64,000 bases of DNA from an uncultured Cohaesibacter sp. (GTDB taxonomy: Bacteria; Pseudomonadota; Alphaproteobacteria; Rhizobiales; Cohaesibacteraceae), in NCBI RefSeq assembly GCF_963678225.1, contig NZ_OY782764.1, positions 2,857,001 through 2,921,000 of the forward strand, written 5' to 3'. Positions within the stretch are counted from its first letter, which is position 1. Each line of letters starts with the position of its first letter. Made by a program: the position numbers and the translations under genes. Below are positions 11,008 to 28,341 of this stretch, one piece after another. The notes under the pieces were generated by a model. That model was not told the DNA's origin. It did not search any database and saw nothing but the letters and a program-made list of their open reading frames with translations.

Positions 11008-11577
11008 GATGTCGAAGACAGTGATTGGCCAGTTGGGACGGCGAAAAGCGGTCCCAAGTGATTCTCATCCGCTCATGCCGAACAGAGAGAAATCGAAACA
11101 TCGCTTTATTGCTTGATTTAAAAGGTAATTTATTACCCGAGTGAGGCTGTGGACGAGTTCTGCGAACGAATGTTGCGGGGCGCTCATCGCCCTTTCTTCG
11201 GTTTCTAATATAGAATTGTTCGACAAAAATATTCTGTAAGGAGATCGACATACAAAAACTTGCCATCAGCAGCTGAGCACAACCAACAGAAGCAAGTTGG
11301 TTAATTATCACTTGAGAAAGATTGTAAAGTTCGAACGAAAACCGTTCTCATTAAATGATACTACTTTAGAATCCAAGAAAAGAAGTCTGAATAAACGGAA
11401 TGGTTGCGTAATTGTTGCTTTTGCACCATGTTCGGAACGTTGTTTTTGCTCGATATTTCAGGTTTTTCGCAATTTTGCTTTTTGGCGAACTTTTGCGATT
11501 TGGGAGGCGGCAATCTTGTCATCCAGAGGTCATCTGTGATCCACTAAATACGGATAGCGACTTATGGGTGACGGGAA
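11008..11577. other. AT-rich gene-free stretch
   Basis: This 570-base gap before the LysR gene becomes markedly AT-rich from about 11100 to 11480. Several short frames exist on both strands, but none has a good ribosome site or a plausible protein. It probably holds the promoter of the LysR gene; no clear terminator was found for the small membrane protein. Confidence 0.4.
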
Positions 11578-12447
11578 ATGAAATTATCAATCAATCAGAT
11601 GCGCGCAGTGGAAGCCGTTGTGCGCACTGGCAGCTTCTCTGCTGCGGCCAAAGAGTTGGGCATTTCCCAACCCTCGGTTTCCAACCATCTCTCTGCGTTG
11701 GAAAAGCACTATCGCACACAATTAATCCATCGAAACGGGCGTCAGGCCGAGGCGACGGAAACCTGTCGCGAAATCCTGTCGCGCATTCGTTCTGTTCTGG
11801 CGATGACCGACGAGATCGAACATGCCCTCGAAGGGCGCCGCCGTATGCAGGCCGGATCCCTGCGCCTCGGCTATTCTACCTACCAGTTTGCTATGCCCAT
11901 TCTGTCAGACTTCATGATCCAGTTCCCTGAAGTTGAGATCGAAGCGCGTGCGATGGCCTCGAATGATCTTTTGCCCTTGTTGGAAGATGGCAAATTTGAT
12001 GTTGTCTTCATTACCTCGGATGAGGCGCCAAGCAGTTTGCATGTCGAAAAGATCCGCACCGAGCGGATCGTTCTCGTTGTTCCGCCTGATCATCCACTCT
12101 GTGAGAAGGGCTCAGCCAGTTGGCAGGATGTTGCCAATGCAGCACTCGTACAGAGGGAAAACAGCTCTGGCACACGTCGAGTGTTTGAAAAGGCGGCAAC
12201 GTCTGCTGGAGTTAAGTTGAACACAGTGTTGGCGCTGGGGTCCTGGGGCGCAATTGTAACCACGATCAACAGCGGAATGGGCATTGGCGTGGCGATGGAA
12301 GGCGAGGTGCTGCCTTCCAACAATGTGGTGATCATTCCCATTGAAGACGAAACCCTGACCGTTTCGCATTATCTCGCCTGCCTGCCAGAGATGCAGCATG
12401 TCTCCGCGATCAGGGCAATGTTCAATGCCCTTAAAGACAATGAGTGA
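11578..12447 (+). CDS. LysR-family regulator of the phosphonate operon
   Basis: 289 residues with a standard LysR helix-turn-helix at residues 3-62 (INQMRAVEAVVRTGSFSAAAKELGISQPSVSNHLSALEKHY). A periplasmic-binding-like effector domain follows (SLRLGYSTYQFAMPILSDFMIQFPEVEIE; NSGMGIGVAMEGE). It lies directly upstream of, and on the same strand as, the ABC-importer/phnWX operon. A palindrome between them (12516-12530) has LysR-box form. Regulators of this family govern 2-aminoethylphosphonate use in other bacteria, so an AEP-type inducer is likely (inference from context). Unusually for LysR it is not divergent from its target. Confidence 0.88.
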   Translation: MKLSINQMRAVEAVVRTGSFSAAAKELGISQPSVSNHLSALEKHYRTQLIHRNGRQAEATETCREILSRIRSVLAMTDEIEHALEGRRRMQAGSLRLGYSTYQFAMPILSDFMIQFPEVEIEARAMASNDLLPLLEDGKFDVVFITSDEAPSSLHVEKIRTERIVLVVPPDHPLCEKGSASWQDVANAALVQRENSSGTRRVFEKAATSAGVKLNTVLALGSWGAIVTTINSGMGIGVAMEGEVLPSNNVVIIPIEDETLTVSHYLACLPEMQHVSAIRAMFNALKDNE

Positions 12448-12515
12448 AAAGACCAGTAGAAACGCCGGGGGGCTGCGCGTCAGAATTGTGACTGTTATAT
12501 GTCATGGCTCTCTTG

Positions 12516-12530
12516 ATAGCTTTAAGCTAT
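12516..12530. promoter_or_regulatory. LysR-type operator candidate
   Basis: ATAGCTT (12516-12522) and AAGCTAT (12524-12530) form a perfect inverted repeat with a single central T, matching the LysR-box form of a short dyad with T and A at the ends. It lies 78 bases upstream of the binding-protein ATG, between the LysR gene and its presumed target. Confidence 0.5.
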
Positions 12531-12607
12531 AGATAGAAGATGTTCATAAAACTGTTAAATAGCATCTCTAGGAAGGGTCTGCTCGATCCAAACAGGGAGA
12601 CCTTCCA

Positions 12608-14662
12608 ATGAGCCCCAAATCTGTTTTTCTCGCCGGAGCGGCCTATGTCGCGCTGAGCGCCTCTGCCTTTGCTGCATGCCCGGTAGCAACTGTTGCAGAT
12701 ATGAAAGGCCTGACCTCTGCCTATCCTGAGCAGTTTGAGTTGGCCGAATTTCAAAAAGCCGGTAGCTGCGAGCTGTCCTTTGCCCAGAACCCGGATATCG
12801 CCAAATTCAACAGCCAGATCCTCGGTAACAAAGAGCTGCCAGCGCTTGCTGATCGTCTGCCGCAAGAGCCGCTTGTTGTTGTTCCCTATGATGCCGTCGG
12901 CACCTATGGCGGCGTGATTACCGGCCTTTCCAAAGGGACGGAATCCGGCACCTCGGATCTTCTCTCCGTGCGCCATGTAAACCTTGTGCGTTATGCCGAT
13001 GACCTGCAGACCGTGGTTCCCAACATTGCCAAAAGCTGGGAATGGAATGACGACTACACGCAGCTGACCTTCACCCTGCGCAAAGGGCATAAATGGTCTG
13101 ATGGCGAGCCTTTCACCGCAGCCGATATCGAATTCTGGTATAACGATCTGATCCTGAACAAAGATGTTTACGAAAAGACGCCGGGCCGCTGGTTGTTCGC
13201 TGGTGAGCCAGCCGTTGTCAAGGCGCTGGATGATGTCACCGTCTCCTTCACTTTCCCTGTGCCAACGCCAGGCATTCTCAACCGCTTCGCTGTTGACTAT
13301 GGTCAGGCTTTCCAGCCCAAGCATTTCCTCGCCCAGTTCATGCCGAAATACAACAAGGATGCCGACAAGCTGGCAAAGGACATGGGGCTTGAGAATGGCG
13401 CTGCGGCCATCAAGATGTATTATGGCGGCTCCGACTGGAAAGACGTGCCAAGCCCGCTGCTGAAGGACGCTGAAGTTGCCGAGAAATTCGGTCGTGCCGT
13501 GGTGCCGACGCTGGAATCCCACATTGTGGTGGAAGAAAATGCCGAAGGCCGCAAGCTGGTCGCCAACCCATATTTCCATATGGTTGACACCGCAGGCAAT
13601 CAGCTTCCCTACATTCCAGAAATTGACGAAAGCTACGTCAAGGACAAGGAAGTCCAGAATCTGAAGATCATGAATGGTGAAGTTGTCTGGAAACAACAGG
13701 CCGTCTTCCTGGAGGACTTCCCGCTGCTCAAGGAAAATGAAGCCAAGGGCAACTATACCGTTTCCTACGCGCCGACCTTCGGGGAGAATATCTTCTTCTC
13801 CTTCAACCGCACCCACAAGGATCCGGTGCTGGCCAAGCTGTTCAATGACATCCGCTTTGAACGCGCTATGTCCATTGCGCTGGATCGTGAAGAAATCAAC
13901 GAGATTGTCTATCTGGGGCAGGGGAAGCCGGCACAGGGTGTACCGGCCGAACCAAAGACCGTGTCTTTCGTCTCTGAAGACATCCTCAATCAGGATATCG
14001 AATTCGATCCTGATCATGCCAGAGAGCTGCTCGCCGATATGGGCCTCAAGGATGCGGATGGCGACGGCACGCTGGAACGTCCGGATGGCAAGCCGCTGGT
14101 TATCCGCCTGATCTATTCCTCTCAGGGTGTGCCAGTGAAGATGATGGAACTGGTGCGTGACTATTGGTCCGCTGTGGGTGTTCGCATCGATCTTAAAGAG
14201 GTGACCTCTGATGAATATCGCGCTGGCGCCAACAACAACGATCTTGATCTGACGACCTGGAAATATGACGGCACCGCCGGTCCTGCCATTTCTCAGGATG
14301 TGACAGCCTTCATTCCGCCATTCGGAGATGTCTTCAACCCGGGCACCGGTTTTGCCTGGGCCCAGTGGATGGATTCCGATGGCAAGGAAGGCGTTGAGCC
14401 ACCAGCCTATGTCAAGAAGCTCTATGACCTGTCCGAGAAGTTCCTGCAGGTTTCCATGGGCTCTGAGGAATCCAACAAACTGGGCGCCGAGATCGTCAAG
14501 ATCCATGTCGACAATTTGCTGAAAATCGGCACCGTCGGCGATATCGTCGCGCCATTCATGTATCGCAATGATTTGAAAAACGTCAAACCGATCAAGGCCA
14601 AGTCCTACGACTTCTACTGGACATACCCATACCGCCCACAACAGTGGTTCCTGTCCAAATAA
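12608..14662 (+). CDS. Oligopeptide-type ABC transporter substrate-binding protein (phosphonate operon)
   Basis: 684 residues, family 5 solute-binding protein. A signal peptide is evident (SVFLAGAAYVALSASAFA, cleavage before ACPV). Hallmarks include PNIAKSWEWNDDYTQLTFTLRKGHKWSDGEPFTAADIEFWYND near residue 140 and the RFERAMSIALDREEINEIVYLGQG block near residue 415. It is longer than the usual 500-540 residues, with extra sequence at the N-terminus and after residue 560, as in a subgroup found in Rhizobiales. GGGAGA before the ATG supports the start. It is the first gene of an operon with two permeases, two ATPases, phnW, phnX and a phosphonate-ester hydrolase. The ligand is therefore predicted to be an aminoethylphosphonate conjugate rather than a plain peptide (inference). 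Confidence 0.92.
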   Translation: MSPKSVFLAGAAYVALSASAFAACPVATVADMKGLTSAYPEQFELAEFQKAGSCELSFAQNPDIAKFNSQILGNKELPALADRLPQEPLVVVPYDAVGTYGGVITGLSKGTESGTSDLLSVRHVNLVRYADDLQTVVPNIAKSWEWNDDYTQLTFTLRKGHKWSDGEPFTAADIEFWYNDLILNKDVYEKTPGRWLFAGEPAVVKALDDVTVSFTFPVPTPGILNRFAVDYGQAFQPKHFLAQFMPKYNKDADKLAKDMGLENGAAAIKMYYGGSDWKDVPSPLLKDAEVAEKFGRAVVPTLESHIVVEENAEGRKLVANPYFHMVDTAGNQLPYIPEIDESYVKDKEVQNLKIMNGEVVWKQQAVFLEDFPLLKENEAKGNYTVSYAPTFGENIFFSFNRTHKDPVLAKLFNDIRFERAMSIALDREEINEIVYLGQGKPAQGVPAEPKTVSFVSEDILNQDIEFDPDHARELLADMGLKDADGDGTLERPDGKPLVIRLIYSSQGVPVKMMELVRDYWSAVGVRIDLKEVTSDEYRAGANNNDLDLTTWKYDGTAGPAISQDVTAFIPPFGDVFNPGTGFAWAQWMDSDGKEGVEPPAYVKKLYDLSEKFLQVSMGSEESNKLGAEIVKIHVDNLLKIGTVGDIVAPFMYRNDLKNVKPIKAKSYDFYWTYPYRPQQWFLSK

Positions 14663-14720
14663 AGCCATCGACAAGGCTGTCCTAACCAATCAGGTGCGGG
14701 GGAGTGCTCCCGCATCAGTG

Positions 14721-14745
14721 CCTGCCCATGTCGGCAGGGTTTTCC
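14721..14745 (+). terminator. Intercistronic stem-loop after the binding-protein gene
   Basis: CCTGCC (14721-14726) and GGCAGG (14733-14738) pair around a 6-base loop, followed by GTTTTCC. A second stem (TGCGGG / CCCGCA, just before) precedes it. It lies between the binding-protein gene and the first permease, a common place for partial termination or RNA stabilisation that keeps binding protein in excess. Confidence 0.55.
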
Positions 14746-14760
14746 TGTGGGGATCCGATA

Positions 14761-15756
14761 ATGCTTCGTTTTACGCTTGAGCGACTGGTTGGCATGATTG
14801 TCACGATGGTGCTTGTTTCCATGATGGTTTTCCTGATCATGGAAATTCCACCTGGTGACTATGCGGATCGCTATGCCTTCCGCAAATATTCAGGCACCGG
14901 TATCGCCATTACGGAAGCGGACATTGAGGCCATCCGGCATGATTTCGGCCTCGATAAACCCATGGCACTGCGCTATGTCGACTGGATTGGCAACATCGTT
15001 CTACATGGCGATTTCGGGCAGGCCTTCGCCTTTGAAACCGATGTGACCAAGGTCATAGGCGACAAGGTCTGGCTGACGATGGCGATCCTGTTTGGAACAT
15101 TGCTGCTCACCTATCTGATTGCCATCCCAATAGGCATCTATGCCGCCGTCAGGCGGGCCTCTTTGGCCGATTACGGTCTCACGATCTTTTCTTATCTGGG
15201 GCTGGCTCTGCCCAACTTCCTGCTGGCTCTAATTCTGCTTTATTTCGTCAATCTCTGGTTCGGTGCGGACATTGGTGGATTGTTTTCAACGGGCATGTCC
15301 GATGCGCCTTGGTCTTTTGCCAAGGCATGGGACCTGATCAAGCATCTGTGGCTTCCGGCCTTCGTGCTGGCCTGGTCGGCGGTCGCCTATCAGATCCAGA
15401 CCATTCGCGCCACCATGTCAGATGAACTCAACAAGCTTTCGGTTACGGCAGCGCGTGCCCGTGGTGTGCCGGAGACCAAGTTGCTGATCAAATATCCCGC
15501 CCGCCTTGCCATCAATCCGGTGGTCTCCACCATCGGCTTTGACGTCAACCGTATCTTCTCCGAGCTCCCCATCGTTGCCGTCGTGCTGGGGCTGACTGAG
15601 CTCGGCGAATTGCTGCTCAATGCCTATCTCGATCTCGACATGTATGTCGCCGGAGCCATCTTGCTGATGCTTACCTTTGTGATTGTGTTGATGAACTTCA
15701 TTTCGGACCTGCTGCTGGCCTGGCTTGATCCGCGCATCAAACTGGGGAGCAATTGA
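14761..15756 (+). CDS. Opp/Dpp-type ABC permease 1
   Basis: 331 residues, starting MLRFTLERLVGMIVTMVLVSMMVFLIMEIPPGD, the typical N-terminus of DppB/OppB-like permeases. About six membrane helices are seen, with the family EAA-like cytoplasmic loop at LSVTAARARGVPETKLLIKYPARLAINPVVS. The extra cytosolic/periplasmic segment after helix 1 (YADRYAFRKYSGTGIAITEADIEAIRHDFGLD) belongs to the longer subgroup. The ATG at 14761 was chosen over an upstream in-frame codon because it gives the canonical start and has GGGGA before it. It forms the membrane channel with the next gene, which begins two bases after this stop. Confidence 0.93.
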   Translation: MLRFTLERLVGMIVTMVLVSMMVFLIMEIPPGDYADRYAFRKYSGTGIAITEADIEAIRHDFGLDKPMALRYVDWIGNIVLHGDFGQAFAFETDVTKVIGDKVWLTMAILFGTLLLTYLIAIPIGIYAAVRRASLADYGLTIFSYLGLALPNFLLALILLYFVNLWFGADIGGLFSTGMSDAPWSFAKAWDLIKHLWLPAFVLAWSAVAYQIQTIRATMSDELNKLSVTAARARGVPETKLLIKYPARLAINPVVSTIGFDVNRIFSELPIVAVVLGLTELGELLLNAYLDLDMYVAGAILLMLTFVIVLMNFISDLLLAWLDPRIKLGSN

Positions 15757-15758
15757 TC

Positions 15759-16934
15759 ATGGCAGATATCACAGACAGCGGCGCTTCCATGTCCACCTCA
15801 ACCAAAGGCTCGAAAGAGAGCGCAAAGGAACACAAGAAGCGGCTCAAATATTATTCAGCCAGCCAATGGACCCTGATATGGTGGCGCTTCCGCCGCCATC
15901 GTGCGGCCATGGTTGCTGCTGCTGTGCTTATCTTCATGGCGTTGTTGGGCATCTTTGCCGAGTTCGTGGCGCCCTATGGCCCAACCAGCCGCGATACCAA
16001 ATATCTAGATGGCGCGCCTCAAGTGCCGCTCTTCTGCGATCAGAATGGTTGCTCATGGCGCCCCTTCGTGCATGGTGTCAGCACAAAACGCGATCCCGTG
16101 ACGTTGCGGGCTATCTCGGTGCCCGATCCTGAGAAGCGTGTCTATCTGACCTTCTTTGCCCAAGGGGAAAAGACAGAGCTTTTGGGCTTTATCCCCTCCA
16201 AGACCCATTTCTTTTTGTTGGATGACAAGCGTGCCAAGCTGCATCTGTGGGGCACGGATGATCTGGGCCGCGATGTCTTTTCGCGCACCATCTATGCAAC
16301 GCGCACCTCGCTCTCCATCGGCGTGATTGGCGTGTTGATCTCTTTCGTGCTCGCTCTCATCATCGGTGGCGTGGCTGGCTATGCCGGGGGCTGGGTGGAC
16401 AATATCATCCAGCGCGTGACCGAGGTCATCCGCGTGGTGCCGATCATCCCGCTCTATATGGGGCTGGCCGCAGCCATGCCCAAGGAGTGGTCCACCACAG
16501 AAGTCTATTTCGCGATGACGCTCATCTTGGGCTTTTTCGGTTGGCCCACGCTGGCTCGACGCATCCGCTCACAGCTGCTTTCCATCCGTTCGGAGGATTA
16601 TGTGGTGGCGGCACGGTTGGCCGGAGCGCGCCCGTTGCGCATCATTTCCCAGCATATGCTGCCCAGCTTTACCAGCTTTATCATCGTCGATCTGGTGATC
16701 TCGTTCCCCTACATGATCCTCAGCGAGACGGCGCTGTCCTTTGTCGGCCTCGGCTTGCGACCACCTACGGTGTCGTGGGGCGTTCTGTTGCAACAGGCCC
16801 AGTCGGTGCGAGTCATCGAGCAGACGCCTTGGCTGTTCATTCCTGCAATCTTCGTGGTGCTGGCTGTGCTGGCCTTCACTGTGGTGGGCGATGGTCTGCG
16901 CGATGCGGCCGACCCATATTCGGACGCACGATAG
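15759..16934 (+). CDS. Opp/Dpp-type ABC permease 2
   Basis: 391 residues, DppC/OppC-like. A polar N-terminal tail of about 45 residues leads to helix 1 (AAMVAAAVLIFMALLGIFAEFVAPYGP). A roughly 90-residue periplasmic insert precedes LHLWGTDDLGRDVFSRTIYATRTSLSIG, the family signature. The cytoplasmic coupling loop is seen in VVAARLAGARPLRIISQHMLP. The ATG at 15759 is preceded by GGGAG; a TTG two codons upstream is in frame but less likely. The long insert, longer than in E. coli DppC, matches the oversized binding protein and may help dock it (inference). Confidence 0.93.
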   Translation: MADITDSGASMSTSTKGSKESAKEHKKRLKYYSASQWTLIWWRFRRHRAAMVAAAVLIFMALLGIFAEFVAPYGPTSRDTKYLDGAPQVPLFCDQNGCSWRPFVHGVSTKRDPVTLRAISVPDPEKRVYLTFFAQGEKTELLGFIPSKTHFFLLDDKRAKLHLWGTDDLGRDVFSRTIYATRTSLSIGVIGVLISFVLALIIGGVAGYAGGWVDNIIQRVTEVIRVVPIIPLYMGLAAAMPKEWSTTEVYFAMTLILGFFGWPTLARRIRSQLLSIRSEDYVVAARLAGARPLRIISQHMLPSFTSFIIVDLVISFPYMILSETALSFVGLGLRPPTVSWGVLLQQAQSVRVIEQTPWLFIPAIFVVLAVLAFTVVGDGLRDAADPYSDAR

Positions 16935-16955
16935 GAAACGGGAAGGATATCAATC

Positions 16956-17957
16956 ATGCTGAAAGTAAAAAATCTCTCCATTTCCTTCCGCACAGATGAA
17001 GGGCTGATCACGCCGGTTCAGGATATTGCCTTTGAAGTTCAGCCGGGGCGCACCCTCGGCATCGTTGGGGAATCCGGCTCGGGTAAATCCATCTCCACCA
17101 AGGCACTGATGCAGCTTCTTCCCGGCAACGGCATCATTTCCAGTGAAGCGAAAATTCTCTATACCGACAAGTCCGGAAAGACATTCGATATCAACAAGCT
17201 GGGCAAGAAGGGAAGGGCCATTCGTCATATTCGGGGGGGCGAAATTGGTATGATCTTTCAGGAGCCCATGGCGTCCTTCTCGCCCGTTTACACCATAGGC
17301 AACCAGATGGTGGAAGCCATACGGCTGCATCGCAATGTCGGACGCAAGGATGCGCGCCACATCGCCATTGAAATGCTCGACAAGGTGGGTATCTCCAACC
17401 CCGAAGCACGGGTGGATCAATATCCTCACGAAATGTCCGGCGGCATGCGTCAGCGGGCGATGATTGCTCTGGCCCTGTCGGCTGGTCCCGCCTTGCTGAT
17501 AGCCGACGAGCCGACCACCGCGCTGGACGTAACCATTCAGGCACAGGTGCTTGAATTGATGCGTAACCTGCAGCGCGATCTCTCGATGGGCATGATTTTC
17601 ATTACCCATGATCTTGGCGTCATTTCCCATATCGCCGATGATGTGGCGGTGATGTATCTGGGTACGATTGTTGAGCGAGGACCGACCGACAAGGTCATTC
17701 ACGAGCCAGCCCATCCCTATACGCAAGGACTGATCAAGGCCTTGCCCAGCGTCGACCGGCTGCATGATCGCTTGACACCCATTCCCGGAGACATACCCAG
17801 CCCCAACGACCGGCCCACAGGCTGCCCGTTTCATACCCGCTGCACCAAGGTGATTGCCGGGCTCTGCGATCAACATCAACCGCAGATTTTACAGGTGGGG
17901 GAAGATCACACCGTGCGCTGCTTTCTGCATGAAAAACAGCAAAGAGCAAGCGCATGA
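16956..17957 (+). CDS. ABC transporter ATPase, OppD-like
   Basis: 333 residues. The Walker A motif is GESGSGKS near residue 40, the Q-loop IGMIFQEPMASFSPVYTIG, the signature MSGGMRQRAMIALAL, Walker B LLIADEPTTALDV, and the H-loop ITHDLGVIS. The C-terminal oligopeptide/dipeptide extension (PTGCPFHTRC..., with conserved cysteines) is the OppD/F-specific cap. It pairs with the next ATPase as a heterodimer energising the two permeases. The start has GGAAGG upstream. Its stop overlaps the following gene by four bases, which suggests coupled translation. Confidence 0.95.
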   Translation: MLKVKNLSISFRTDEGLITPVQDIAFEVQPGRTLGIVGESGSGKSISTKALMQLLPGNGIISSEAKILYTDKSGKTFDINKLGKKGRAIRHIRGGEIGMIFQEPMASFSPVYTIGNQMVEAIRLHRNVGRKDARHIAIEMLDKVGISNPEARVDQYPHEMSGGMRQRAMIALALSAGPALLIADEPTTALDVTIQAQVLELMRNLQRDLSMGMIFITHDLGVISHIADDVAVMYLGTIVERGPTDKVIHEPAHPYTQGLIKALPSVDRLHDRLTPIPGDIPSPNDRPTGCPFHTRCTKVIAGLCDQHQPQILQVGEDHTVRCFLHEKQQRASA

Positions 17958-19105
17958 CCATGGACGCAACAAGGATGGACAACAGCAGTAAACAAGAGAA
18001 CGAGCTTCTCATCGAGGTCAAGAATCTTGAAGTCCGGTTCCCGATCCGCAAGAAGAAACTCTTTTCATCCGAAGTCTCCTATCTGCGAGCGGTCGACGAT
18101 GTCAGCTTTGACATCAGACGAGGCGAAACGGTCGGTCTGGTAGGAGAATCCGGGTCTGGCAAAACCACCGTTGGCCGCGCCATTCTGCGCGCCATTGACC
18201 CCACTGCGGGCGATGTGATCTTCCACACCCGCGAGCATGATATCTATCTCGATGAGTTGGAAGGGGAAGAGCTGCGCCGGTTTCGAAAGAAAATGGGCAT
18301 GGTCTTCTCTGAAGGTCCTCATTCGATTGCCAATATGGCGAGTGACATTCTGCGTTCCTTTCGCCCGCGCATGAGCCTTGTCTTTCAGGATCCCTATTCT
18401 TCGCTCAACCCGCGCATGACCGTGCGCGACATCATTGCCGAGCCTCTGGTCGCATCCGGCATGATGAAAAATCGCGACAAGATCGATCAGCGGGTGCGCG
18501 ATATCGCAAGTCGCTGCAAGCTCAATCTGGAGCATCTGCGCCGTTTCCCCCACGCATTCTCGGGCGGACAACGCCAGCGCATCTGCATCGCGCGGGCCTT
18601 GGTAACGCGGCCTGATTTTGTGGTTTGCGACGAGAGCGTTTCTGCGCTGGATGTGTCCATTCAGGCAGAGATCGTCAATCTACTCAAAGACCTACAGGAA
18701 GAAATGGGCGTGGCCTTTCTGTTCATTGCCCATGATCTGTCTGTGGTGGCCCAAATGTCCCATCGTGTGGCCGTGATGTATGTGGGCAAGTTCGTTGAAT
18801 ATGCGCCTACCGAGAGTCTTTTCTATAAGCCGCGCCATCCCTATACCCACGCGCTTTTGTCGGCCATTCCGACCATAGATCCGGACGAGAGTTTCGATCC
18901 GATCAGGTTGGAAGGCGAAATTCCCAACCCGCTCGCCGCGCCATCCGGCTGTCGCTTTCACACCCGCTGCCCCTATGCAACGGAGCAATGCGCCAGTGAA
19001 ATCCCGCACTGGCAGGAAATAGCGCCGGAGCATTTTGTGGCCTGCCATAGGGTGGATGAGCTCGATTTCTCCCGCGACAAACAAAGCGCGGATATCACCG
19101 ATTAG
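17954..19105 (+). CDS. ABC transporter ATPase, OppF-like, with extra Q-loop segment
   Basis: 383 residues. Walker A GESGSGKT is at about 64-71, the real Q-loop [17 protein letters not shown] near 131-147, the signature [15 protein letters not shown], Walker [12 protein letters not shown] (D-E intact), the H-loop IAHDLSVV, and the C-terminal [13 protein letters not shown] cap. Residues about 100-128 hold an unusual insert: [14 protein letters not shown] reads like a second, degenerate copy of the Q-loop start, followed by about 15 further residues. It partners the OppD-like ATPase. A four-base overlap with that gene implies coupled translation; an internal ATG at residue 8 is an alternative start. 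Confidence 0.93.
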
Positions 19106-19120
19106 AAACCAGACCCAAAA

Positions 19121-19145
19121 GGAAGCAAACAGCTCTGCTGCTTCC
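19121..19145 (+). other. Intercistronic stem-loop before phnW
   Basis: GGAAGCA (19121-19127) and TGCTTCC (19139-19145) pair around 11 bases, with no T-run after. It divides the transporter part from the catabolic part of the operon and may be an RNA-processing or stability element. Confidence 0.45.
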
Positions 19146-19184
19146 CCAATAAACAAGAAAGCCTAACGAGAAGAGGATCGTCCG

Positions 19185-20399
19185 ATGTCCAAGCTGGACA
19201 ATGAACGTGCCAACAATCTGAAAAGCAGTTTGCTGCCTGATCCCGAAATGGGCGAGCCTTTTCTGCTGACGCCCGGTCCGCTGACCACCTCCTTTGCCGT
19301 CAAGCAGGCGATGCTGAGGGATTGGGGCAGTTGGGATGGCGACTTCCGTGCCATGACCGCCGATATGCGCCGCCGACTGCTCGCTCTGTTGGGGGCGGAA
19401 CAAGGCGCCTTTGAATGCATTCCCATGCAAGGCTCCGGCTCCTATCTGGTCGAAGCGTTGCTCGGCACCATGGTGCCCAAGGATGGCAAATTGCTTGTGC
19501 TGGCCAATGGGGCCTATGGCCTGCGGGCCGCAAAGACAATGGAAGCCATTGGCAGGGCTTATCACCTGCTTCACAAGGGCGATTATCTGCCTCCGCGTGG
19601 TGCCGAGGTGGCTGATATCCTTGCCAATGATCCGGCTATCACCCATGTGCTGGCGATCCATTGCGAAACCAGTTCGGGCATTCTCAACCCCATCGCCGAG
19701 ATTTCTCAGGCCACCTATGCCGCCGGGCGCAAGCTGCTGGTGGATTCCATGTCTGCCTTTGGCGCTGTGACCATGGAGCCCGATCAGATCCGTTATGAGG
19801 CGCTGGTTTCATCGGCAAACAAATGCATCGAGGGGGTGCCGGGCTTTGGCTTTGCGCTGGTACGCCGCAGTGAACTCATCGCCACCAAAGGCAACTGCCA
19901 TTCTCTCAGTCTTGATCTTCATGCCCAATGGGAAAATCTGGAAAAGAGCGGCCAGTGGCGCTTTACACCGCCGACCCATGTGGTTGCCGCATTTCTTGAG
20001 GCATTGAAAGCCCATGAGGCCGAGGGCGGTGTGGCGGTGCGTGGGGCCCGCTACACCAACAATCGCGACGTGATGGTCGCCGGTATGCGGGCGTTGGGCT
20101 TTGAAACCCTGCTCGATGCGCGTTGGCTTTCGCCGATCATCGTTACCTTTTTCTGCCCGGCCGATGAGCGCTTCGTGTTTGATCGCTTCTATGAGCTGAT
20201 GAAAGACAAGGGCTTCATCATCTATCCGGGCAAGCTGACGGTGGTGGAAAGCTTCCGCATTGGCTGCATCGGCCAGATGGATGAAGCCATCATGCGTCGC
20301 GTTGTGGCTGCGGCAAAACAGAGCCTTGAGGAACTGGGCGTAACAAGCGCCGCCCCGCCTTTGGCAGCCTTTGAAGAACGTAAGAAGCTGAACGCTTGA
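19185..20399 (+). CDS. phnW: 2-aminoethylphosphonate:pyruvate aminotransferase
   Basis: 404 residues, class V PLP aminotransferase. It converts 2-aminoethylphosphonate and pyruvate into phosphonoacetaldehyde and alanine. Family marks are LLTPGPLTTSFAVKQAML with DWGSWD, the FECIPMQGSGSYLVEA block, the VDSMSAFGAV stretch holding the PLP aspartate region, the PLP lysine in SSANKCIEGVPGFGF, and the C-terminal FIIYPGKLT.VESFRIGCIGQM. The length is a little above the usual 370, from extensions at both ends. GAAGAGGA before the ATG fits. phnX follows at once, completing the phosphonatase pathway. Confidence 0.96.
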   Translation: MSKLDNERANNLKSSLLPDPEMGEPFLLTPGPLTTSFAVKQAMLRDWGSWDGDFRAMTADMRRRLLALLGAEQGAFECIPMQGSGSYLVEALLGTMVPKDGKLLVLANGAYGLRAAKTMEAIGRAYHLLHKGDYLPPRGAEVADILANDPAITHVLAIHCETSSGILNPIAEISQATYAAGRKLLVDSMSAFGAVTMEPDQIRYEALVSSANKCIEGVPGFGFALVRRSELIATKGNCHSLSLDLHAQWENLEKSGQWRFTPPTHVVAAFLEALKAHEAEGGVAVRGARYTNNRDVMVAGMRALGFETLLDARWLSPIIVTFFCPADERFVFDRFYELMKDKGFIIYPGKLTVVESFRIGCIGQMDEAIMRRVVAAAKQSLEELGVTSAAPPLAAFEERKKLNA

Positions 20400-20422
20400 A
20401 GGCCATTCGGAGAGAGAACATC

Positions 20423-21196
20423 ATGACACAGATAAAAGCGGTTATATTTGATTGGGCCGGAACGCTGGTGGATTTCGGCAGCTTCGCGCCTATGGGCGTC
20501 TTCGTCAAATGCTTCGAGGAATTTGGCATCAAGGCGTCCATTGAGCAGGCCCGTGCCCCCATGGGGTTGCCCAAATGGAACCATATCCGCGCCATGATGG
20601 ACGATGACGCCATCGCGGCCCAATGGCAGGCCAAATATGGCCAGGAACCAACCGATGCCGATGTCGACAAGATCTATGAGATCTTCGTACCGATGAATGA
20701 AAAGGTCGCTGCCGACTATGCCGATCTGGTGCCCGGTGCGCTGGAAACCATCGACTGGCTGCGCACGCGCGGCATCAAGATTGGCTCCACGACAGGCTAT
20801 ACCCGCTCGATCATGGAGCATGTCTTGCCTGTTGTGAAGAAACAGGGGTTCGAGCCGGACAATCTCATCTGTGCTGATGATCTGGCCGAGGGCCGCCCCG
20901 GTCCGCTGGGCATGTATCAGAGCTTCGTGGATCTGGCCGTCTATCCGCCTTCTGCTGTCATCAAGGTGGATGACACGGTGCCGGGCCTCAAGGAAGGTGT
21001 CGCCGCAGGCTGTATCACGGTCGGGCTGGCGCTCTCCGGCAATTTCGTCGGCAAGACGCCGCAAGAGCTGGCTGCGCTTTCCGAGGGGGAAATTGCCAGC
21101 TTGCGAGAGGCCGCGACTGTGCTACTCAAAGAGGGTGGGGCGGATTATGTCATCGACACGGTGGCCGATCTGCCAGCCCTGATCGAAACACTCTGA
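20423..21196 (+). CDS. phnX: Phosphonoacetaldehyde hydrolase (phosphonatase)
   Basis: 257 residues, HAD superfamily. It cleaves the C-P bond of phosphonoacetaldehyde to acetaldehyde and phosphate. The nucleophile motif is DWAGTLVDFG near residue 10. The Schiff-base lysine lies in the cap domain at ARAPMGLPKWNHIRAM. Motif II is GSTTGYTR and the C-terminal acidic motif is IKVDDTVPGLKEG. The ATG at 20423 (after AGAGAG) was preferred to an in-frame ATG at 20396, which overlaps the phnW stop and would add nine residues. Confidence 0.96.
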   Translation: MTQIKAVIFDWAGTLVDFGSFAPMGVFVKCFEEFGIKASIEQARAPMGLPKWNHIRAMMDDDAIAAQWQAKYGQEPTDADVDKIYEIFVPMNEKVAADYADLVPGALETIDWLRTRGIKIGSTTGYTRSIMEHVLPVVKKQGFEPDNLICADDLAEGRPGPLGMYQSFVDLAVYPPSAVIKVDDTVPGLKEGVAAGCITVGLALSGNFVGKTPQELAALSEGEIASLREAATVLLKEGGADYVIDTVADLPALIETL

Positions 21197-21239
21197 TTGT
21201 TAAAAGATCCTTTGATCGGATTTGAGGAGAACCCGCGCC

Positions 21240-22793
21240 ATGTCCAGACCGAATATCATTCTTATAACGGCCGATCAGTGGCGCGGTGATTGTTTGGGCG
21301 CGGTGGGGCATCCGACTCTCAAGACCCCCAATCTGGATGCATTGGCGGCCGATGCAGTTTTGTTTCGCAATCACTATTGTGCAACGGCTCCTTGCTCGCC
21401 GGCGCGGGCAACCCTTTACACCGGTCTTTACCAGATGAACCACAGGGTGGTGCGCAATGGAGCGCCATTGGCTGACGGGTTTGATACGCTCGCCAAGGCC
21501 GGGCGCAGGGCTGGTTACAAGCCGACGCTTTTCGGCTACACGGACACGGCGCTCGACCCGCGCACTCTGGCACCAGATGATCCGGCTCTGACCACCTATG
21601 AGAATGTGCTACCGGGCATGGAGGTGGGGCAAGCGCTGCCCGAAGATGACAAGCCATGGCTGACATGGCTCAAGACGCGCGGCTATGATGTTGCCTCCCG
21701 CTTTGAGGCCCTCACGCCGCCGATGGAACCGGGGGAACGGGTCTCCATGCTGCCGCCTTGCTACGGGGCAGATGAAACACCGACGGCCTTCCTGCTGGAA
21801 AAGATGGAAGACTGGCTGGATGAGCAGCGGGAGGAGGACGCACCTTTCTTTGCTCATCTCTCCTTCATTCGTCCGCATCCGCCTTTTGTTGTGCCTGAGC
21901 CTTACAACAGCATGTATGCGCCTGAGGCTGCTCAAGACGCAGCACCTGCCTTCGATCGGCATCCCTGCGCCACAGCCGAGGCGGCAAGCCACCCGTTTGC
22001 CGACTTGATGATGCAGCATAACGGGCTATCGAGCTTCCTCACCTATGATGAGGACGGCAACCCGAACCCGAAAGGGCGTGTCAAGGATCTATCAGCTCAT
22101 GATATCAGCCGTATTCGAGCCCTCTATTATGGCATGATCTCGGAAGTCGACGCCGCCATTGGTCGCCTGATTGCCAGCCTCAAGGCGCGCGGGCTCTGGG
22201 AGAATACGGTCTTCATCTTTACCTCCGATCATGCCGAAATGATGGGGGATCACTGGATGCTCGGCAAGGGCGGATTTCACGCCTCCAGCTATCACATCCC
22301 TCTGATTATCCGGACACCGGACGGCGGCCGCGGCGAGACGGTTAGCGCCTTTACGTCCAGCGCCGACATCTTCCCCACCTTGCTTGAAATTCTTGGTGAT
22401 GAGGCTATCAACGCGCTTGATGGCACCTCGCTTATGGAGCATGTCTGCGGCAATCCCGTAAGCGGGTGGCGCGATGCTGCCTTTTACGAGTTTGACTTCC
22501 GCGCCCAGCGTGCGGGCAGCGCCGAACTCAAGGCCCGTATGCGGCAGGAAGAATGTTCGCTTGCGGTATTGCGAGACGAAGCCTTTCACTATGTGCACAT
22601 CCCCGGCTTTCCAGCCCTGTTGTTCGATCTGCAAAAGGACCCCCAGTGCCTTAACAATGTCGCCGAGGATGAAGCCTATCTGCGCACGCGGCTCATCTAT
22701 GCCGAGAAGCTGCTTGATCTGAGGGCGCGGCATATGGACGAAACACTGGCGCGCATGCTGATGACCCCGCAAGGCGCGGTGATCACCGACTAA
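21240..22793 (+). CDS. Phosphonate monoester hydrolase / sulfatase-family phosphodiesterase
   Basis: 517 residues, alkaline-phosphatase superfamily. The metal and formylglycine motifs are seen: ITADQWRGD at residues 9-17, Cys52 in APCSPARATLYTG (CxPxR, the site converted to formylglycine), and TSDHAEMMGDHWMLGKGGF further on. Overall pattern, including PHPPFVVPEPYNSMY, the YEFDFR block and the C-terminal HMDETLARML.TPQGA segment, resembles rhizobial phosphonate monoester hydrolases, which cleave phosphonate and phosphate diesters. In this operon it would free AEP from an ester before PhnW acts (inference). The ATG at 21240 follows GAGGAG. No formylglycine-generating enzyme is in the window. 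Confidence 0.85.
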   Translation: MSRPNIILITADQWRGDCLGAVGHPTLKTPNLDALAADAVLFRNHYCATAPCSPARATLYTGLYQMNHRVVRNGAPLADGFDTLAKAGRRAGYKPTLFGYTDTALDPRTLAPDDPALTTYENVLPGMEVGQALPEDDKPWLTWLKTRGYDVASRFEALTPPMEPGERVSMLPPCYGADETPTAFLLEKMEDWLDEQREEDAPFFAHLSFIRPHPPFVVPEPYNSMYAPEAAQDAAPAFDRHPCATAEAASHPFADLMMQHNGLSSFLTYDEDGNPNPKGRVKDLSAHDISRIRALYYGMISEVDAAIGRLIASLKARGLWENTVFIFTSDHAEMMGDHWMLGKGGFHASSYHIPLIIRTPDGGRGETVSAFTSSADIFPTLLEILGDEAINALDGTSLMEHVCGNPVSGWRDAAFYEFDFRAQRAGSAELKARMRQEECSLAVLRDEAFHYVHIPGFPALLFDLQKDPQCLNNVAEDEAYLRTRLIYAEKLLDLRARHMDETLARMLMTPQGAVITD

Positions 22794-22798
22794 AGCCG

Positions 22799-23605
22799 CT
22801 AAAAGATGAAGCGATCCGAGCGATCCATGAAATCGTGCATATGCACCATGATCTGCTCTTCGTTGGCCAGCACCACGCCATAGGCTGGAGCTTCGAAATT
22901 GCCATATTGACCCTTCGGAGAGGATGTCATCTCTAGGGCCACCTGATGGTTGAGCCCGCGCATGCAGGAAACGGGCAGCCCGCGCCAATTGCCATAGACC
23001 ATCCGATGGGCATGACCGACAAAGATATGCCGCACGCGATGGCGATGGGGCCTCAGGATCTGCCAGAAGGCTTCCGCATCTTCAAGGCGGCTCTCATCCA
23101 TGTCGGGCAGGCCGATGGCGAAGGGGGGATGGTGCATGAACAGCATCACCGGCCCCGAGGTTTCGCTCAAGACGCCCTTCAGCCATCCTTGCCTCTCTTC
23201 GCAATAACGCCCCACATCACTGCCGCGCTGGCTGGTATCCAGAAACAGACAAAGTCCGAATGGCGTGCGCTTGGAGCCTTGAATGAAGCCGCAATCGCAG
23301 CGCTGTGCTTCGGGGAAATGAAAGCGGAAGGTACGAACATCATCATGATTGCCCACGAGAAGATGGGACGGAATGGACAGCCGCCGGAGTTCACGGGCAA
23401 ATATTTCATAAGCAGCATCATCGCCATGATGGGTCAGATCGCCTGTTATGACGACGAAGTCTGCATCATGATGCTCGCTGTTGATGCTGTCGATTGCCGC
23501 GCGCAACCTGCCTGCTGGCTGTTGGCCGTATACAGCGCCGCCATCCTTGACAATATGGCAATCGGTCAGATGGATGAATTTCAGCATATCGGGATTTTTG
23601 ATCAT
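22799..23605 (-). CDS. Metallophosphoesterase (GpdQ/CpdA-like phosphodiesterase)
   Basis: 268 residues with the complete dinuclear-metal phosphoesterase set: LTDCH near residue 13, ITGDLTHHGDD, VGNHDD, a histidine in MLFMHHPPFAIG, and FVGHAHR. The closest characterised types are glycerophosphodiesterase GpdQ and cyclic-nucleotide phosphodiesterase CpdA. It lacks a signal peptide, so it acts in the cytosol. The ATG at 23605 has AGGTG upstream; an ATG at 23587 giving MLKFIHLTD is a good alternative. It converges with the phosphonate-ester hydrolase five bases away. It diverges from the DeoR/ABC operon, which points to a phosphodiester delivered by that importer (inference). Confidence 0.88.
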   Translation of the reverse strand: MIKNPDMLKFIHLTDCHIVKDGGAVYGQQPAGRLRAAIDSINSEHHDADFVVITGDLTHHGDDAAYEIFARELRRLSIPSHLLVGNHDDVRTFRFHFPEAQRCDCGFIQGSKRTPFGLCLFLDTSQRGSDVGRYCEERQGWLKGVLSETSGPVMLFMHHPPFAIGLPDMDESRLEDAEAFWQILRPHRHRVRHIFVGHAHRMVYGNWRGLPVSCMRGLNHQVALEMTSSPKGQYGNFEAPAYGVVLANEEQIMVHMHDFMDRSDRFIF

Positions 23606-24120: not shown

Positions 24121-24969
24121 ATGAGAGTCGCAAGAGCGGATCGGGGCATTATGAAAAACTATAGCGAACGGCAATTGGAAATCATTCGGACGGTTACCGA
24201 AAGCGGCTTTTCAGCCATCGATGCCTTGTCCGAACAGTTCAATGTTTCCACGCAGACCATTCGCCGTGATGTCAACGCCCTGTGTGAGCTGGGCGAGCTG
24301 CGCCGCGTCTGGGGCGGGGTGGAGCCACCACCCGTGAGCGGCAACCTGCTTTATGCCAAGCGCAAGATCATGAATGTAACCGCCAAGCGGCAGATTGCCT
24401 TTGAAGTTGCCAAACATATTCCCGATGGCAGCACCATAGCGCTTTCCATAGGCACCACACCGGAAATGGTCATCGAGGCCTTGCAGGAAAAGGCCAATCT
24501 CAAGGTCTTTACCAACAACCTCAATGTTGCCATGCAGGCAAGCGAACGCCACGACTGGTCTGTGACCATTGCGGGTGGCAGCGTGCGCCCAGGCGACAAG
24601 GACATTCTGGGCTCGGATGTGGAGGTTTTCTTTGATCGCTTCGAGGTAGACTTCGGCATTTTCGGCGTGGCGGGTGTGACGCCCGATGGCGGCCTGCTGG
24701 ATTTCTCCGAGGCCGAAGTGGGGAGCCGCCGGGCCATCATGAAAAACAGCCGAAAGTCTTTTCTGGTCATGGACCATACCAAATTCGGGCGCGCGGCCCA
24801 TGTGCGGGGCGGGCATCTTTCCGATGTGTCCTGCATTGTCTGCGATGAACCCATTCCGCATCCATTTGAAAGCGGGCTCGGCTCGGCCAGCGTGATTATT
24901 GCCAATGAAACAAGCCGTGATGAGAAGGCTGACGCGGGCAACGACCCTTATGAACGAGGCACGCGATGA
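24121..24969 (+). CDS. DeoR/GlpR-family transcriptional regulator
   Basis: DeoR helix-turn-helix at the N-terminus (SERQLEIIRTVTESGFSAIDALSEQFNVSTQTIRRDVNALCELGELRRVWGGVEPP). The DeoRC sensor domain follows, with SIGTTPEMVIEAL, FTNNLNVAMQA, VTIAGGSVRPGDKDILG and MDHTKFGRAAHVR, the phosphosugar-binding fold related to GlpR. The effector is probably a phosphorylated C3-C6 compound. Two starts are possible: ATG 24121 or ATG 24151 (MKNYSERQ), the latter closer to the family norm. It overlaps the next gene, an ABC ATPase, by four bases and so is part of the importer operon it presumably controls. Confidence 0.9.
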   Translation: MRVARADRGIMKNYSERQLEIIRTVTESGFSAIDALSEQFNVSTQTIRRDVNALCELGELRRVWGGVEPPPVSGNLLYAKRKIMNVTAKRQIAFEVAKHIPDGSTIALSIGTTPEMVIEALQEKANLKVFTNNLNVAMQASERHDWSVTIAGGSVRPGDKDILGSDVEVFFDRFEVDFGIFGVAGVTPDGGLLDFSEAEVGSRRAIMKNSRKSFLVMDHTKFGRAAHVRGGHLSDVSCIVCDEPIPHPFESGLGSASVIIANETSRDEKADAGNDPYERGTR

Positions 24970-26051
24970 GCGCTGCACATCCGGCCCATCACGGGCGATC
25001 AATCGAGCTGCAGTCGATCTCCAAGAGCTGGGATCAGACCAAGGCGCTCGATAGCGTGAACATATCCATTCCCGCGGGCTCTTTCACCGCCTTGCTCGGA
25101 CCATCCGGCTGTGGCAAGTCGACCTTGTTGCGCATCATTGCAGGGCTGGAAACCGCCACGGAAGGAACGGTTCGAATTGGCGATGAAGATGTCACCCGCC
25201 GTCCACCAGACAAGCGCGATCTGTCCATGGTGTTCCAGTCCTACGCTCTGTTTCCGCATCTGGATGTGGCCGAGAATATCATATTTGGCCTCAAGACCCG
25301 CAAGGAGCCGAAGAAGCAGCGCACCGAAAAGCTGCTCGCAGTTGCCGAGCTGATGGGCCTTGAAAAACTGTTGGATCGCAAACCCGGCGCGCTTTCCGGC
25401 GGACAGCAGCAGCGCGTGGCGCTGGCCCGTGCCGTCATTGCCGAGCGTTCCATTTGCCTGATGGATGAACCGCTTTCAAACCTTGATGCCAAATTGCGTC
25501 ACGAGATGCGGGTTGAGCTGCGGGCTCTGCAACAAAAGCTCGGTTTTACCATGGTCTATGTCACCCACGATCAGGCCGAGGCAATCACCATGGCGGATCA
25601 GGTGGTGCTGCTCAATGCAGGTCAGGTGGAACAGGTCGATGCACCGCGCGCCCTTTATGATGCGCCACGCTCCACCTTCGCTGCCCGTTTTATCGGGACC
25701 CCCCCCATGAGCCTGTTCGAAGCCTCAGCGCTTGGCGATATGGGCCAGCAACTGAGCCGTGATGCAGGCACCGAACTGTTGCTCGGGCTTCGCCCGGAAG
25801 CGGTAACCCCTAATGAGGATGGCCTTCTGAAGGCCACCATCGCTGCCGCCGAGTTTCAGGGCGCAGACACCATGCTCGATTGTCTGGTTGGCGATGAAAT
25901 GATCACCGTGCGGGCCTCTGGCAGAAGCCACTTTGCTGCAGGCAGTCCGGTCTCCCTTTCCTTCGCTCCTGAGGAACTGGCCTTGTTCGACAAGGCATCA
26001 GGGGCACGTCTCATAAAGTCCCAAAAACTGGTCGAGGCCCTGCGGTCTTGA
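24966..26051 (+). CDS. ABC transporter ATPase, UgpC/MalK-like
   Basis: 361 residues. Walker A GPSGCGKST near residue 40, the Q-loop VFQSYALFPHLDVAENI, the signature LSGGQQQRVALARAV, Walker B ICLMDEPLSNLDAKLR, and the switch histidine VYVTHDQAEA are all intact. The C-terminal TOBE-like regulatory domain is seen with FIGTPPMSLFEA and GLRPEAV. This is the carbohydrate/glycerol-phosphate importer type. It would work as a homodimer with the two permeases at 27472-29171. Its start overlaps the DeoR stop. Confidence 0.95.
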   Translation: MSAAHPAHHGRSIELQSISKSWDQTKALDSVNISIPAGSFTALLGPSGCGKSTLLRIIAGLETATEGTVRIGDEDVTRRPPDKRDLSMVFQSYALFPHLDVAENIIFGLKTRKEPKKQRTEKLLAVAELMGLEKLLDRKPGALSGGQQQRVALARAVIAERSICLMDEPLSNLDAKLRHEMRVELRALQQKLGFTMVYVTHDQAEAITMADQVVLLNAGQVEQVDAPRALYDAPRSTFAARFIGTPPMSLFEASALGDMGQQLSRDAGTELLLGLRPEAVTPNEDGLLKATIAAAEFQGADTMLDCLVGDEMITVRASGRSHFAAGSPVSLSFAPEELALFDKASGARLIKSQKLVEALRS

Positions 26052-26104
26052 TCGATAACCAAATCTATTTTTAACAGTCAAACAGGATGAAAAGGACCAT
26101 ACCC

Positions 26105-27385: not shown

Positions 27386-27406
27386 TCCACTTTGCGATTG
27401 GCTTTT

Positions 27407-27437
27407 GCGAGGGGGATGTCTTCCCCTCGCTTCTTTT
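27407..27437 (+). terminator. Stem-loop with T-tract after the binding-protein gene
   Basis: GCGAGGGG (27407-27414) and CCCCTCGC (27423-27430) pair around an 8-base loop, followed by TTCTTTT. It lies between the binding-protein and permease genes and probably causes partial termination. Confidence 0.75.
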
Positions 27438-27471
27438 ATGACTTTGCGATGGATCGCATGTGAGGGCAAGA

Positions 27472-28341
27472 ATGAGACGCTACTGGATATATGCTCTGCT
27501 GCTGCTGTTACCGGCGATGGTGCTGCTCATGGGCTTTACCCATATTCCAGCTATTGAAACCGTCATTAGCAGCTTTTTCTCGACGCCCCACGGACGTCGT
27601 CCGGCGCATTTCGTCGGTATCGATAACTATCTCTATCTGCTCGAAGACGATGTGTTCATCCGCTCTTGCTGGAACAACCTCATCTATGCCGCCATCACGA
27701 TCCCAGCTTCCATCATCATCGCTTTGGTCATGGCGCTGTTTGTGCATAGCCGCATGGCTGGGCTTTCCTTTCTGCGCATGGCCTACTTCACGCCGACCGT
27801 GCTGCCGATGATCGCGGTGGGCAACATCTGGCTGTTTTTCTTTACCCCAAGCTTCGGGCTCATCGACCAGATCCGCGCCCTGTTTGATCTGCCCGCGCAG
27901 AACTGGATGGGCGACCCTGACACGGTTCTTTATACGGTGCTGGTGGTTGCCGTCTGGAAGAATGCCGGCTTCTTCATGATTTTCTATCTTGCCGCCTTGC
28001 AGACCATTCCGGAACCCCTGCGCGAGGCGGCCAAGCTGGAAGGGGCAGGGCGCTGGACCTTCTTCCGCCGCGTCACCCTACCGCTGATCATGCCCACGAC
28101 CCTGTTCATTCTGGTGAACGCCATTATCAATTCGGTGCGCCTCATCGATCATATTTTCATCATGACCCTCGGCGGGCCGAACAATGCCTCCAGATTGCTG
28201 CTCTATCACATTTATGAAACGGCCTTTGAATATTGGGACACCGCTTCGGCCAGCGCGATGACAGTGGTCATCCTGTTCGTTCTCTCGCTGTTGGCCATTG
28301 GGCAATTCTTCTGGCTCGATCGTAAGGTGCATTACAAATGA
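27472..28341 (+). CDS. ABC transporter permease, UgpA/MalF-like
   Basis: 289 residues with six predicted helices, starting MRRYWIYALLLLLPAMVLLMGFTHIPAIETVISSFF. The EAA coupling loop is in EPLREAAKLEGAGRWTFFRRVTLPLIMP. GAGGG before the ATG at 27472 supports this start over the GTG at 27460. It is the first of the two permease subunits; the stop overlaps the next ATG by four bases. Confidence 0.94.
   Translation: MRRYWIYALLLLLPAMVLLMGFTHIPAIETVISSFFSTPHGRRPAHFVGIDNYLYLLEDDVFIRSCWNNLIYAAITIPASIIIALVMALFVHSRMAGLSFLRMAYFTPTVLPMIAVGNIWLFFFTPSFGLIDQIRALFDLPAQNWMGDPDTVLYTVLVVAVWKNAGFFMIFYLAALQTIPEPLREAAKLEGAGRWTFFRRVTLPLIMPTTLFILVNAIINSVRLIDHIFIMTLGGPNNASRLLLYHIYETAFEYWDTASASAMTVVILFVLSLLAIGQFFWLDRKVHYK

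Follow-up and report, generated by a model that had tools for sequence, protein, structure and literature searches.

An oligopeptide-type importer encoded with a phosphonate monoester hydrolase, PhnW and PhnX in Cohaesibacter: a candidate route into esterified 2-aminoethylphosphonate

The described uptake systems for 2-aminoethylphosphonate (AEP) combine the importers PhnSTUV, AepXVW, AepSTU or PhnCDE with the catabolic enzymes PhnWX or PhnWYA, and they have been tested with free AEP (PMC8316502). Their binding proteins either belong to the FbpA-rooted AepX/PhnS/AepS group or are PhnD (PMC8316502). Here we describe a related gene set from an uncultured Cohaesibacter sp., located on contig NZ_OY782764.1 of assembly GCF_963678225.1 within a stretch of 64,000 nucleotides (positions 2,857,001 to 2,921,000), which is called the window in the following and supplies all coordinates. 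As in the described systems, an importer adjoins the genes for PhnW, PhnX and a LysR-type regulator, and the catabolic route is the same. The locus differs from them by a binding protein of the SBP_bac_5 family, an OppBCDF-type transporter and a phosphonate monoester hydrolase (PMH). An earlier note made from this sequence had already pointed out that the binding-protein family is not that of the known AEP importers, and the comparison with PhnD, PhnS, AepX and AepS bears this out. We think, with a probability of roughly 0.6, that the operon serves the uptake and mineralisation of an O-ester of AEP, or of N-methyl-AEP in relatives.

The nine genes from the LysR gene to the PMH gene form a single run on the forward strand (11578-22793), with gaps of 160, 98, 2, 21, -4, 79, 23 and 43 bases in this order. 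The gene set, the common strand and the short gaps had been noted before; the open reading frames lie at the places given and domain scans confirm their families, and the LysR gene, at 11578, lies ahead of the start that had been given (12608). This regulator (11578..12447) has as its closest relative the LysR family associated with AEP catabolism, TIGR03339, which ranks first among 53 families and yet remains below its cut-off (207 of 341 bits). It is followed by the periplasmic family-5 binding protein of 684 residues (12608..14662; SBP_bac_5, 192 bits), an OppB/DppB-type permease (14761..15756; best named model Opp4B, 203.5 of 450 bits), an OppC/DppC-type permease (15759..16934; best Opp4C, 260.9 of 350 bits), and the OppD-type (16956..17957) and OppF-type (17954..19105) ATPases, whose genes overlap by 4 bases and which both contain ABC_tran and oligo_HPY domains. 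The SBP_bac_5 protein, the two BPD_transp_1 permeases and the two oligo_HPY ATPases all exceed the gathering scores, and the permeases carry the accessory domains BPD_transp_1_N and OppC_N, one each. Among the NCBIfam matches listed, no named Opp, Dpp or Nik model reaches its cut-off for these proteins, and the binding-protein models of AEP importers, TIGR03261 and TIGR03227 (PhnS2/PhnS), find no counterpart in the operon, where SBP_bac_5 stands in their place. Downstream, both enzymes of the hydrolytic AEP pathway lie above their curated cut-offs, namely the AEP:pyruvate transaminase PhnW (19185..20399; TIGR02326, 463.9 bits, cut-off 400.8) and the phosphonoacetaldehyde hydrolase PhnX (20423..21196; TIGR01422, 334.4 bits, cut-off 220). 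The last gene (21240..22793) encodes the PMH, a formylglycine-type phosphonate monoester hydrolase/phosphodiesterase of the sulfatase fold.

Characterised PMHs are phosphonate monoester hydrolases and phosphodiesterases (PMC5066984). They are well studied and promiscuous, and the portion of the PMH literature that was covered names no natural substrate. The nearest PDB chains of the window protein, which bear the names PMH or PMH-like, are 4uph (598 bits), 2w8s (BcPMH, 354 bits), 2vqr (RlPMH, 335 bits) and 4upk (319.5 bits). With the PMH/PehA enzymes of Burkholderia caryophylli and Rhizobium leguminosarum and with 4uph and 4upk, the window protein has in common the sequence of the alkaline phosphatase superfamily, the cysteine that is converted to formylglycine, the metal ligands and the equivalent of Tyr105. 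The residues D12, Q13, C52, R56, N73, Y100, H213, D330, H331 and K343 are present, comprising the formylglycine cysteine, the metal-binding Asp/Gln/Asp/His and the Asn, His and Lys expected of a PMH; except for the formylglycine and the positions 105 and 107, these roles are the ones we take the residues to have. The CxPxR motif noticed earlier reads C52-S-P-A-R56. At positions 105 and 107, arylsulfatases have Lys/His and PMHs Tyr/Thr. The window PMH keeps the tyrosine and differs from PMH/PehA in having an aspartate, D102, at the Thr107 position, as do 4uph and 4upk, as well as in its linkage to an importer and AEP enzymes. In an alignment of 65 PMH-like proteins from the compared loci (designated by L numbers), 63 show Tyr/Asp, and the Lys/His signature of arylsulfatases occurs in L131 and L134, which were for this reason removed from the PMH counts. 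Two further loci, L130 with an in-frame stop and L164 at a contig end, were counted as PMH loci, their genes being too short for alignment, tree and signature check. The genome contains one hit for a formylglycine-generating enzyme. Its Pfam Sulfatase domain is matched from residue 4 onward, so that the PMH should be cytoplasmic. The Burkholderia PMH was reportedly discovered with glyceryl glyphosate, the glycerol ester of a phosphonate. As a separate observation, one in-frame TAG each was seen in the PMH genes G647:C36 and G556:C401, the former adjoining the importer.

We infer the ligand, the direction of transport and the activity of the PMH on AEP esters as follows. The binding protein and OppBCDF would carry the intact ester into the cytoplasm. 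The likeliest candidates for this ester are glyceryl-AEP derived from phosphonolipids and glycosyl-AEP fragments of phosphonoglycans; phosphonates are indeed built into lipids and glycans (PMC8316502). In the cytoplasm, the PMH with formylglycine formed from Cys52 would cut the P-O-C bond to release AEP and the alcohol, PhnW would transfer the amine to pyruvate to give alanine and phosphonoacetaldehyde, and PhnX would convert the latter to acetaldehyde and phosphate. A glycerol or sugar ester of AEP fits the importer, the PMH and the AEP enzymes together. The idea that an AEP conjugate is imported and fed to the PMH and then to PhnW/PhnX had been put forward in the earlier note and is backed by the gene context and the conserved gene order described below. 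The same note had also considered phosphonopeptides; these would contain AEP or phosphonoalanine in peptide linkage, and the binding protein, permeases and ATPases are indeed of the oligopeptide/dipeptide class. As the operon encodes no peptidase, as PMHs are phosphonate monoester hydrolases and phosphodiesterases that act on P-O and not on amide bonds, and as the nearest binding proteins with known ligand are sugar binders, we rejected this candidate and regard it as very improbable.

For the analysis of gene order, 53 loci were obtained by protein search in genomes and 50 regions from further genomes, and 96 loci were scored. L040 with two binding proteins, the poorly matching L050-L053 and two stretches of the window genome itself that lack such a binding protein were dropped before scoring; the two sets may partly overlap, and five overlaps were removed. 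Loci cut by contig ends remain in the totals, with counts for loci with full flanks given alongside. According to the identity of the binding protein, the loci fall into a close class (at least 60%, 25 loci), clade II (46-56%, 50), clade III (40-45%, 6), a class at 36-39% (2) and one below 36% (13). In the close class, which includes a Cohaesibacter marisflavi counterpart with a 99% identical binding protein, the window order from the binding protein onward is kept in 17 of 25 loci, with PhnW in 13 and a PbfD-type oxidase in 4 of them, and this gene order is thus conserved to a greater extent than chance would give. A PMH is found in 19/25 close loci, PhnX in 20/25, PhnW in 14/25 and a PbfD-type oxidase (TIGR03364) in 6/25; all 19 loci with a PMH also have PhnX together with PhnW or PbfD. 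In L017 the enzyme genes come first. In L016 the PMH gene is divergent, and the importer-PbfD-PhnX operon ends, after PhnX, with a PhnZ-like HD oxygenase gene (18368-18919 of that locus; TIGR03276, 204 of 214.6 bits). The synteny check that had been proposed for Hyphomicrobiales thus shows the order to be kept beyond the window genome and also beyond this group, in Shimia, Ruegeria, Thalassobius and Mameliella. In an order-wide sample of 397 genomes, where scoring was confined to the top 2 and top 3 candidates of each, the binding protein (at E up to 1e-80) was present in 53 and a PMH in 83. In genomes also having a PMH, 23 of 29 places with a binding protein of at least 44% identity lie within 12 kb of the PMH gene, compared with 0/9 at 33-39%; the genomes are related, and no p-value is claimed.

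In the more distant clades a PMH also stands beside the importer, in nearly all cases in the absence of PhnX. Clade II has a PMH in 19/50 loci (21 before removal of L131 and L134; 17/36 with full flanks), PhnX in 1, PhnW in 6 and PbfA in 5; clade III has a PMH in 5/6. At 36-39% identity a PMH occurs in 1/2 loci, L048, and has Gln at the Lys337 place, and below 36% in 0/13 (10 with full flanks). Such loci bear on the view that the importer takes up phosphodiesters or sugar phosphodiesters in general, for example glycerophosphodiesters, with the PMH as phosphodiesterase and PhnW/PhnX as passengers or as the route for one of several substrates. The phosphodiesterase activity of characterised PMHs (PMC5066984) would agree with this, as would the galacturonate and melibiose/raffinose ligands of the nearest binding proteins and the neighbouring genes: an IMPase-family phosphatase lies near 6/50 clade II and 1/6 clade III importers, a DeoR-type regulator near 5/50 in clade II, with weaker DeoR matches (74-106 bits) in 5/6 clade III loci, and a GH4 gene in L048. 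In L029 the phosphatase is HisN-like (235 of 275 bits) and the regulator GlpR/AgaR-like, both below cut-off. Against this, all 19 PMHs of the close loci are accompanied by PhnX and PhnW or PbfD, and the LysR protein is nearest to an AEP-associated family, so that we consider a general phosphodiester importer distinctly unlikely for the window operon. Two further observations concern these clades. In L048 (15812-18611), an importer with 38% identity is followed by the PMH and the GH4 glycosidase, a combination that would fit a glycoside, either phosphorylated or phosphonylated, as the ligand. PbfA, the (R)-1-hydroxy-AEP ammonia-lyase, occurs near the clade II importers of L031 and L038 (Ruegeria), L023, L027 and L029, in L031 and L038 without a PMH; the L027 protein was tested against the model (669 bits, cut-off 525), and the other four were assigned by similarity to it.

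The PMH is the hub of the module, since the importer and the PMH occur together without PhnX, and the PMH, PhnX and PbfD occur together without the importer. The latter holds for three PMHs (L183, L184 and L188) out of 20 that were chosen at places apart from the importer; these three lie beside PbfD, PhnX and other transport genes: a PotI-like permease in L184 (129 of 476 bits, PhnV only 66), a PotD-like binding protein (101 of 582 bits) and an ATPase with PhnT2 as best match (344.5 of 457.7 bits) in L188, and NMT1-type binding proteins, farther away, in L183. Also within the importer loci partners are exchanged. PhnW is replaced by a TIGR03364 protein above cut-off in L003 and L016, with relatives in L005, L123, L124 and L125 detected by tblastn. 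This resembles the PbfD-PhnX clusters of PMC10590968, where the TIGR03364 oxidase can replace PhnW as it does in the Roseibium operons of our set; phosphonoacetaldehyde is what PbfD enzymes form by oxidation of N-methyl-AEP and of AEP (PMC10590968). Close importers are accompanied by PMHs of at least two separate subfamilies, as the PMH tree shows. Those of Cohaesibacter, Roseibium, L017, L123 and L125 stand among PMHs from other genomes of the window's order (99 SH-aLRT), seven mostly from Rhodobacterales group with clade II PMHs (100 SH-aLRT), and the one of L016 groups, less firmly, with clade III (88 SH-aLRT). On the importer tree this amounts to 2 changes of PMH subfamily, hand-assigned from the PMH tree (12 rows as A and 22 as B, with the others uncounted), and 3 changes between PhnW and PbfD; L127 even combines a clade II importer with the first PMH type, PhnW and PhnX. 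Both trees are quick ones without bootstrap, in which the positions of long rows, L048, L146 and L127 among them, are uncertain. That a partner is exchanged for one of equivalent function at the same position is to be expected of genes with a real functional link. Separately, the PMH of L187 adjoins a different Opp-like importer, 31-37% identical to the window parts, with no AEP genes.

It could also be that free AEP (or N-methyl-AEP) is the substrate of the Opp-type importer and that the PMH is a separate scavenging esterase in a shared operon. In 14 of 19 chosen operon-bearing genomes there is one PhnW match (E up to 1e-60), above cut-off and in or beside the operon, and in the other 5 there is none, which would suit this explanation; in the window genome (4.94 Mb), too, PhnW occurs once above cut-off. 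It would likewise suit it that a PhnS2-type AEP binding protein reaches its cut-off of 393 bits in 1/19 genomes and in the window genome none does (131 bits); no search was aimed at AepX and AepP. Against it, four more of the 19 have matches of 207-341 bits that may be AEP importers too, and the window genome already carries PhnCDE and a C-P lyase for free phosphonates. Moreover, the importer stays with a PMH in clades that nearly lack PhnX, a PMH of another subfamily can occupy the same place, and a large binding protein of cluster C would be unusual for so small a ligand. For these reasons we regard import of free AEP as unlikely, although L124, with importer, PbfD and PhnX and no PMH, speaks for it.

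Several observations, L124 among them, weigh against the uptake of an AEP ester as the function of the operon. In five of the 25 close loci (L006, L007, L011, L142 and L143), neither a PMH nor an AEP gene was found within the stretch examined, and 31/50 clade II loci are without a nearby PMH. Across the 66 rows of the importer tree, the presence of the PMH changes 13 times, so that its link to the importer has often been lost or gained. Of the 20 PMHs chosen apart from the importer, 17 (including L187) have no PhnW, PhnX, PbfD or PbfA match within about 9 kb on either side, some of these stretches being cut by contig ends, which shows that the PMH is not an enzyme for AEP only. Also, PMH/PehA and the window enzyme differ in that the best family of the latter, the PehA equivalog NF045661, is matched with 467 bits at a cut-off of 900. 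In five gammaproteobacterial clade II loci (L026, L030, L032, L033 and L036), glycolate-oxidase genes lie upstream of the importer (GlcE in 5/5, GlcD in 4/5), and no PMH was seen there, on contigs that are in part short. The residues K109, G392, S534 and D564 of the close-class binding proteins are replaced in clade II, because of which the ligands of the two clades may differ. Finally, Murphy et al. (PMC8316502) note that marine high-molecular-weight dissolved organic matter contains no AEP or only a minor share of it, which disfavours bulk dissolved polysaccharide as the source.

The binding protein itself has no near paralogue in the genome, the next best being 33% identical over a partial length. 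Its best PDB matches are SPH1118 (272 bits), 5ipw (268 bits) and an alpha-galactoside-binding protein (101 bits). An AlphaFold2 model (pLDDT 86) retrieves in Foldseek SPH1118 with bound galacturonate (7veu; TM 0.81/0.90), followed by 5ipw and the melibiose/raffinose protein MelB. SPH1118 and MelB, both SBP_bac_5 proteins of cluster C, thus share fold and size class with the window protein, and they are the closest solved binding proteins with known ligand. The excess of about 150 residues over DppA that had been noted earlier is arithmetically right, but we rejected it as a mark of a new ligand, because such length is normal for this subfamily (619 residues in SPH1118, 683 in MelB). The window protein differs from SPH1118 in that it is 29% identical to 7veu and has mostly lost the ligand arginines: R57, R294, R438, R466 and R496 correspond to L119, Q364, Q506, S534 and D564, and R47 to Lys109, according to a hand mapping of 12 pocket places that uses the alignment only. 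With five of six arginines gone, binding of pectin or uronate as in SPH1118 was rejected. T115, Q364, Q506, W551 and mostly Y667 are the same in the close clade and clade II and unlike SPH1118 in both. The previously proposed glyceryl-AEP is a possible ligand; because the closest relatives with known ligand bind sugars, a glycosyl-AEP ester would be as likely. The N-terminal extension (residues 24-74) contains two cysteines, C24 and C54, each present in at least 94% of the 37 rows that make up the close clade, clade II and L048; the 4 Chloroflexi relatives lack them. Tentatively, and at slightly less than even odds, we propose that the widespread Opp branch whose binding proteins have this two-cysteine extension is a dedicated importer of organophosphorus esters, covering phosphonate monoesters as well as phosphodiesters with glycerol, inositol or sugars as the alcohol, and that the PMH is its cytoplasmic partner.

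Control of the operon would be exerted by the LysR protein and, in Cohaesibacter, probably by PhoB. A direct repeat resembling a Pho box, TTGTCAT-N6-GTCAT (11516..11533, +), ends 44 bases upstream of the LysR start and has 3 mismatches to CTGTCATNNNNCTGTCAT. Such matches number 9 in the window against 5.9 expected, so that a single one is at chance level. The repeat recurs at -62 to -65 before the LysR gene in L001, L002, L163, L164 and L167, where 0.00-0.02 are expected per 300-base stretch, and it forms an invariant block (TTGTCAT, then GTCA), whereas the sequence around it has diverged, the upstream region having a mean column identity of 63%. This footprint is kept in 6/7 Cohaesibacter loci, L004 having a match at -181 instead. 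In 11 tested loci from outside Cohaesibacter no match precedes the LysR gene, the matches of L003 and L005 lying before the binding-protein gene, and the C-P lyase stretch of the window genome has 6 matches against 1.4 expected. Together, this suggests PhoB control of the operon in Cohaesibacter and not generally.

No description of this operon was found in the open-licence PMC literature as judged by titles and abstract starts, and the main text of PMC10590968 does not contain the words "monoester", "sulfatase" or "oligopeptide", under which a PMH or an Opp-type importer might be discussed. Sosa et al. 2017 (PMC5649143) postulated a release of phosphonates from marine polysaccharides by alkaline-phosphatase-like enzymes and drew attention to a PhoD-like enzyme and to a PMH; in the present loci a PMH is linked with both an importer and AEP catabolism. 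Uptake of AEP esters would give this little-understood esterase a natural job. If the Opp branch is indeed dedicated to phosphonate esters, PMHs would have a physiological role, and bacteria a direct route into phosphonates that are esterified in lipids and glycans, with no need of hydrolysis outside the cell. A module of importer, PMH and PhnX with swaps between equivalent parts makes the uptake of bound AEP and the role of the PMH testable in cultured marine bacteria.

Scans for tRNAs and Rfam families gave no match, and the 12 terminator-like and 6 promoter-like sites do not exceed what shuffled sequences give (12.3 and 6.9). Convergent with the PMH gene lies a metallophosphoesterase gene (22799-23605, - strand) that is nearest to SpdA, a rhizobial cyclic-nucleotide phosphodiesterase (213 of 400 bits), and that is found at the same place in L001 and L002 only among the loci compared. 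The stretch 24121-30111 (+) contains genes for a DeoR/GlpR-like regulator and for UgpC-, UgpB- and UgpA-like proteins, all below cut-off, together with one further open reading frame and one gene without NCBIfam match, and it would encode a putative sugar or glycerol-phosphate importer adjoining the operon.

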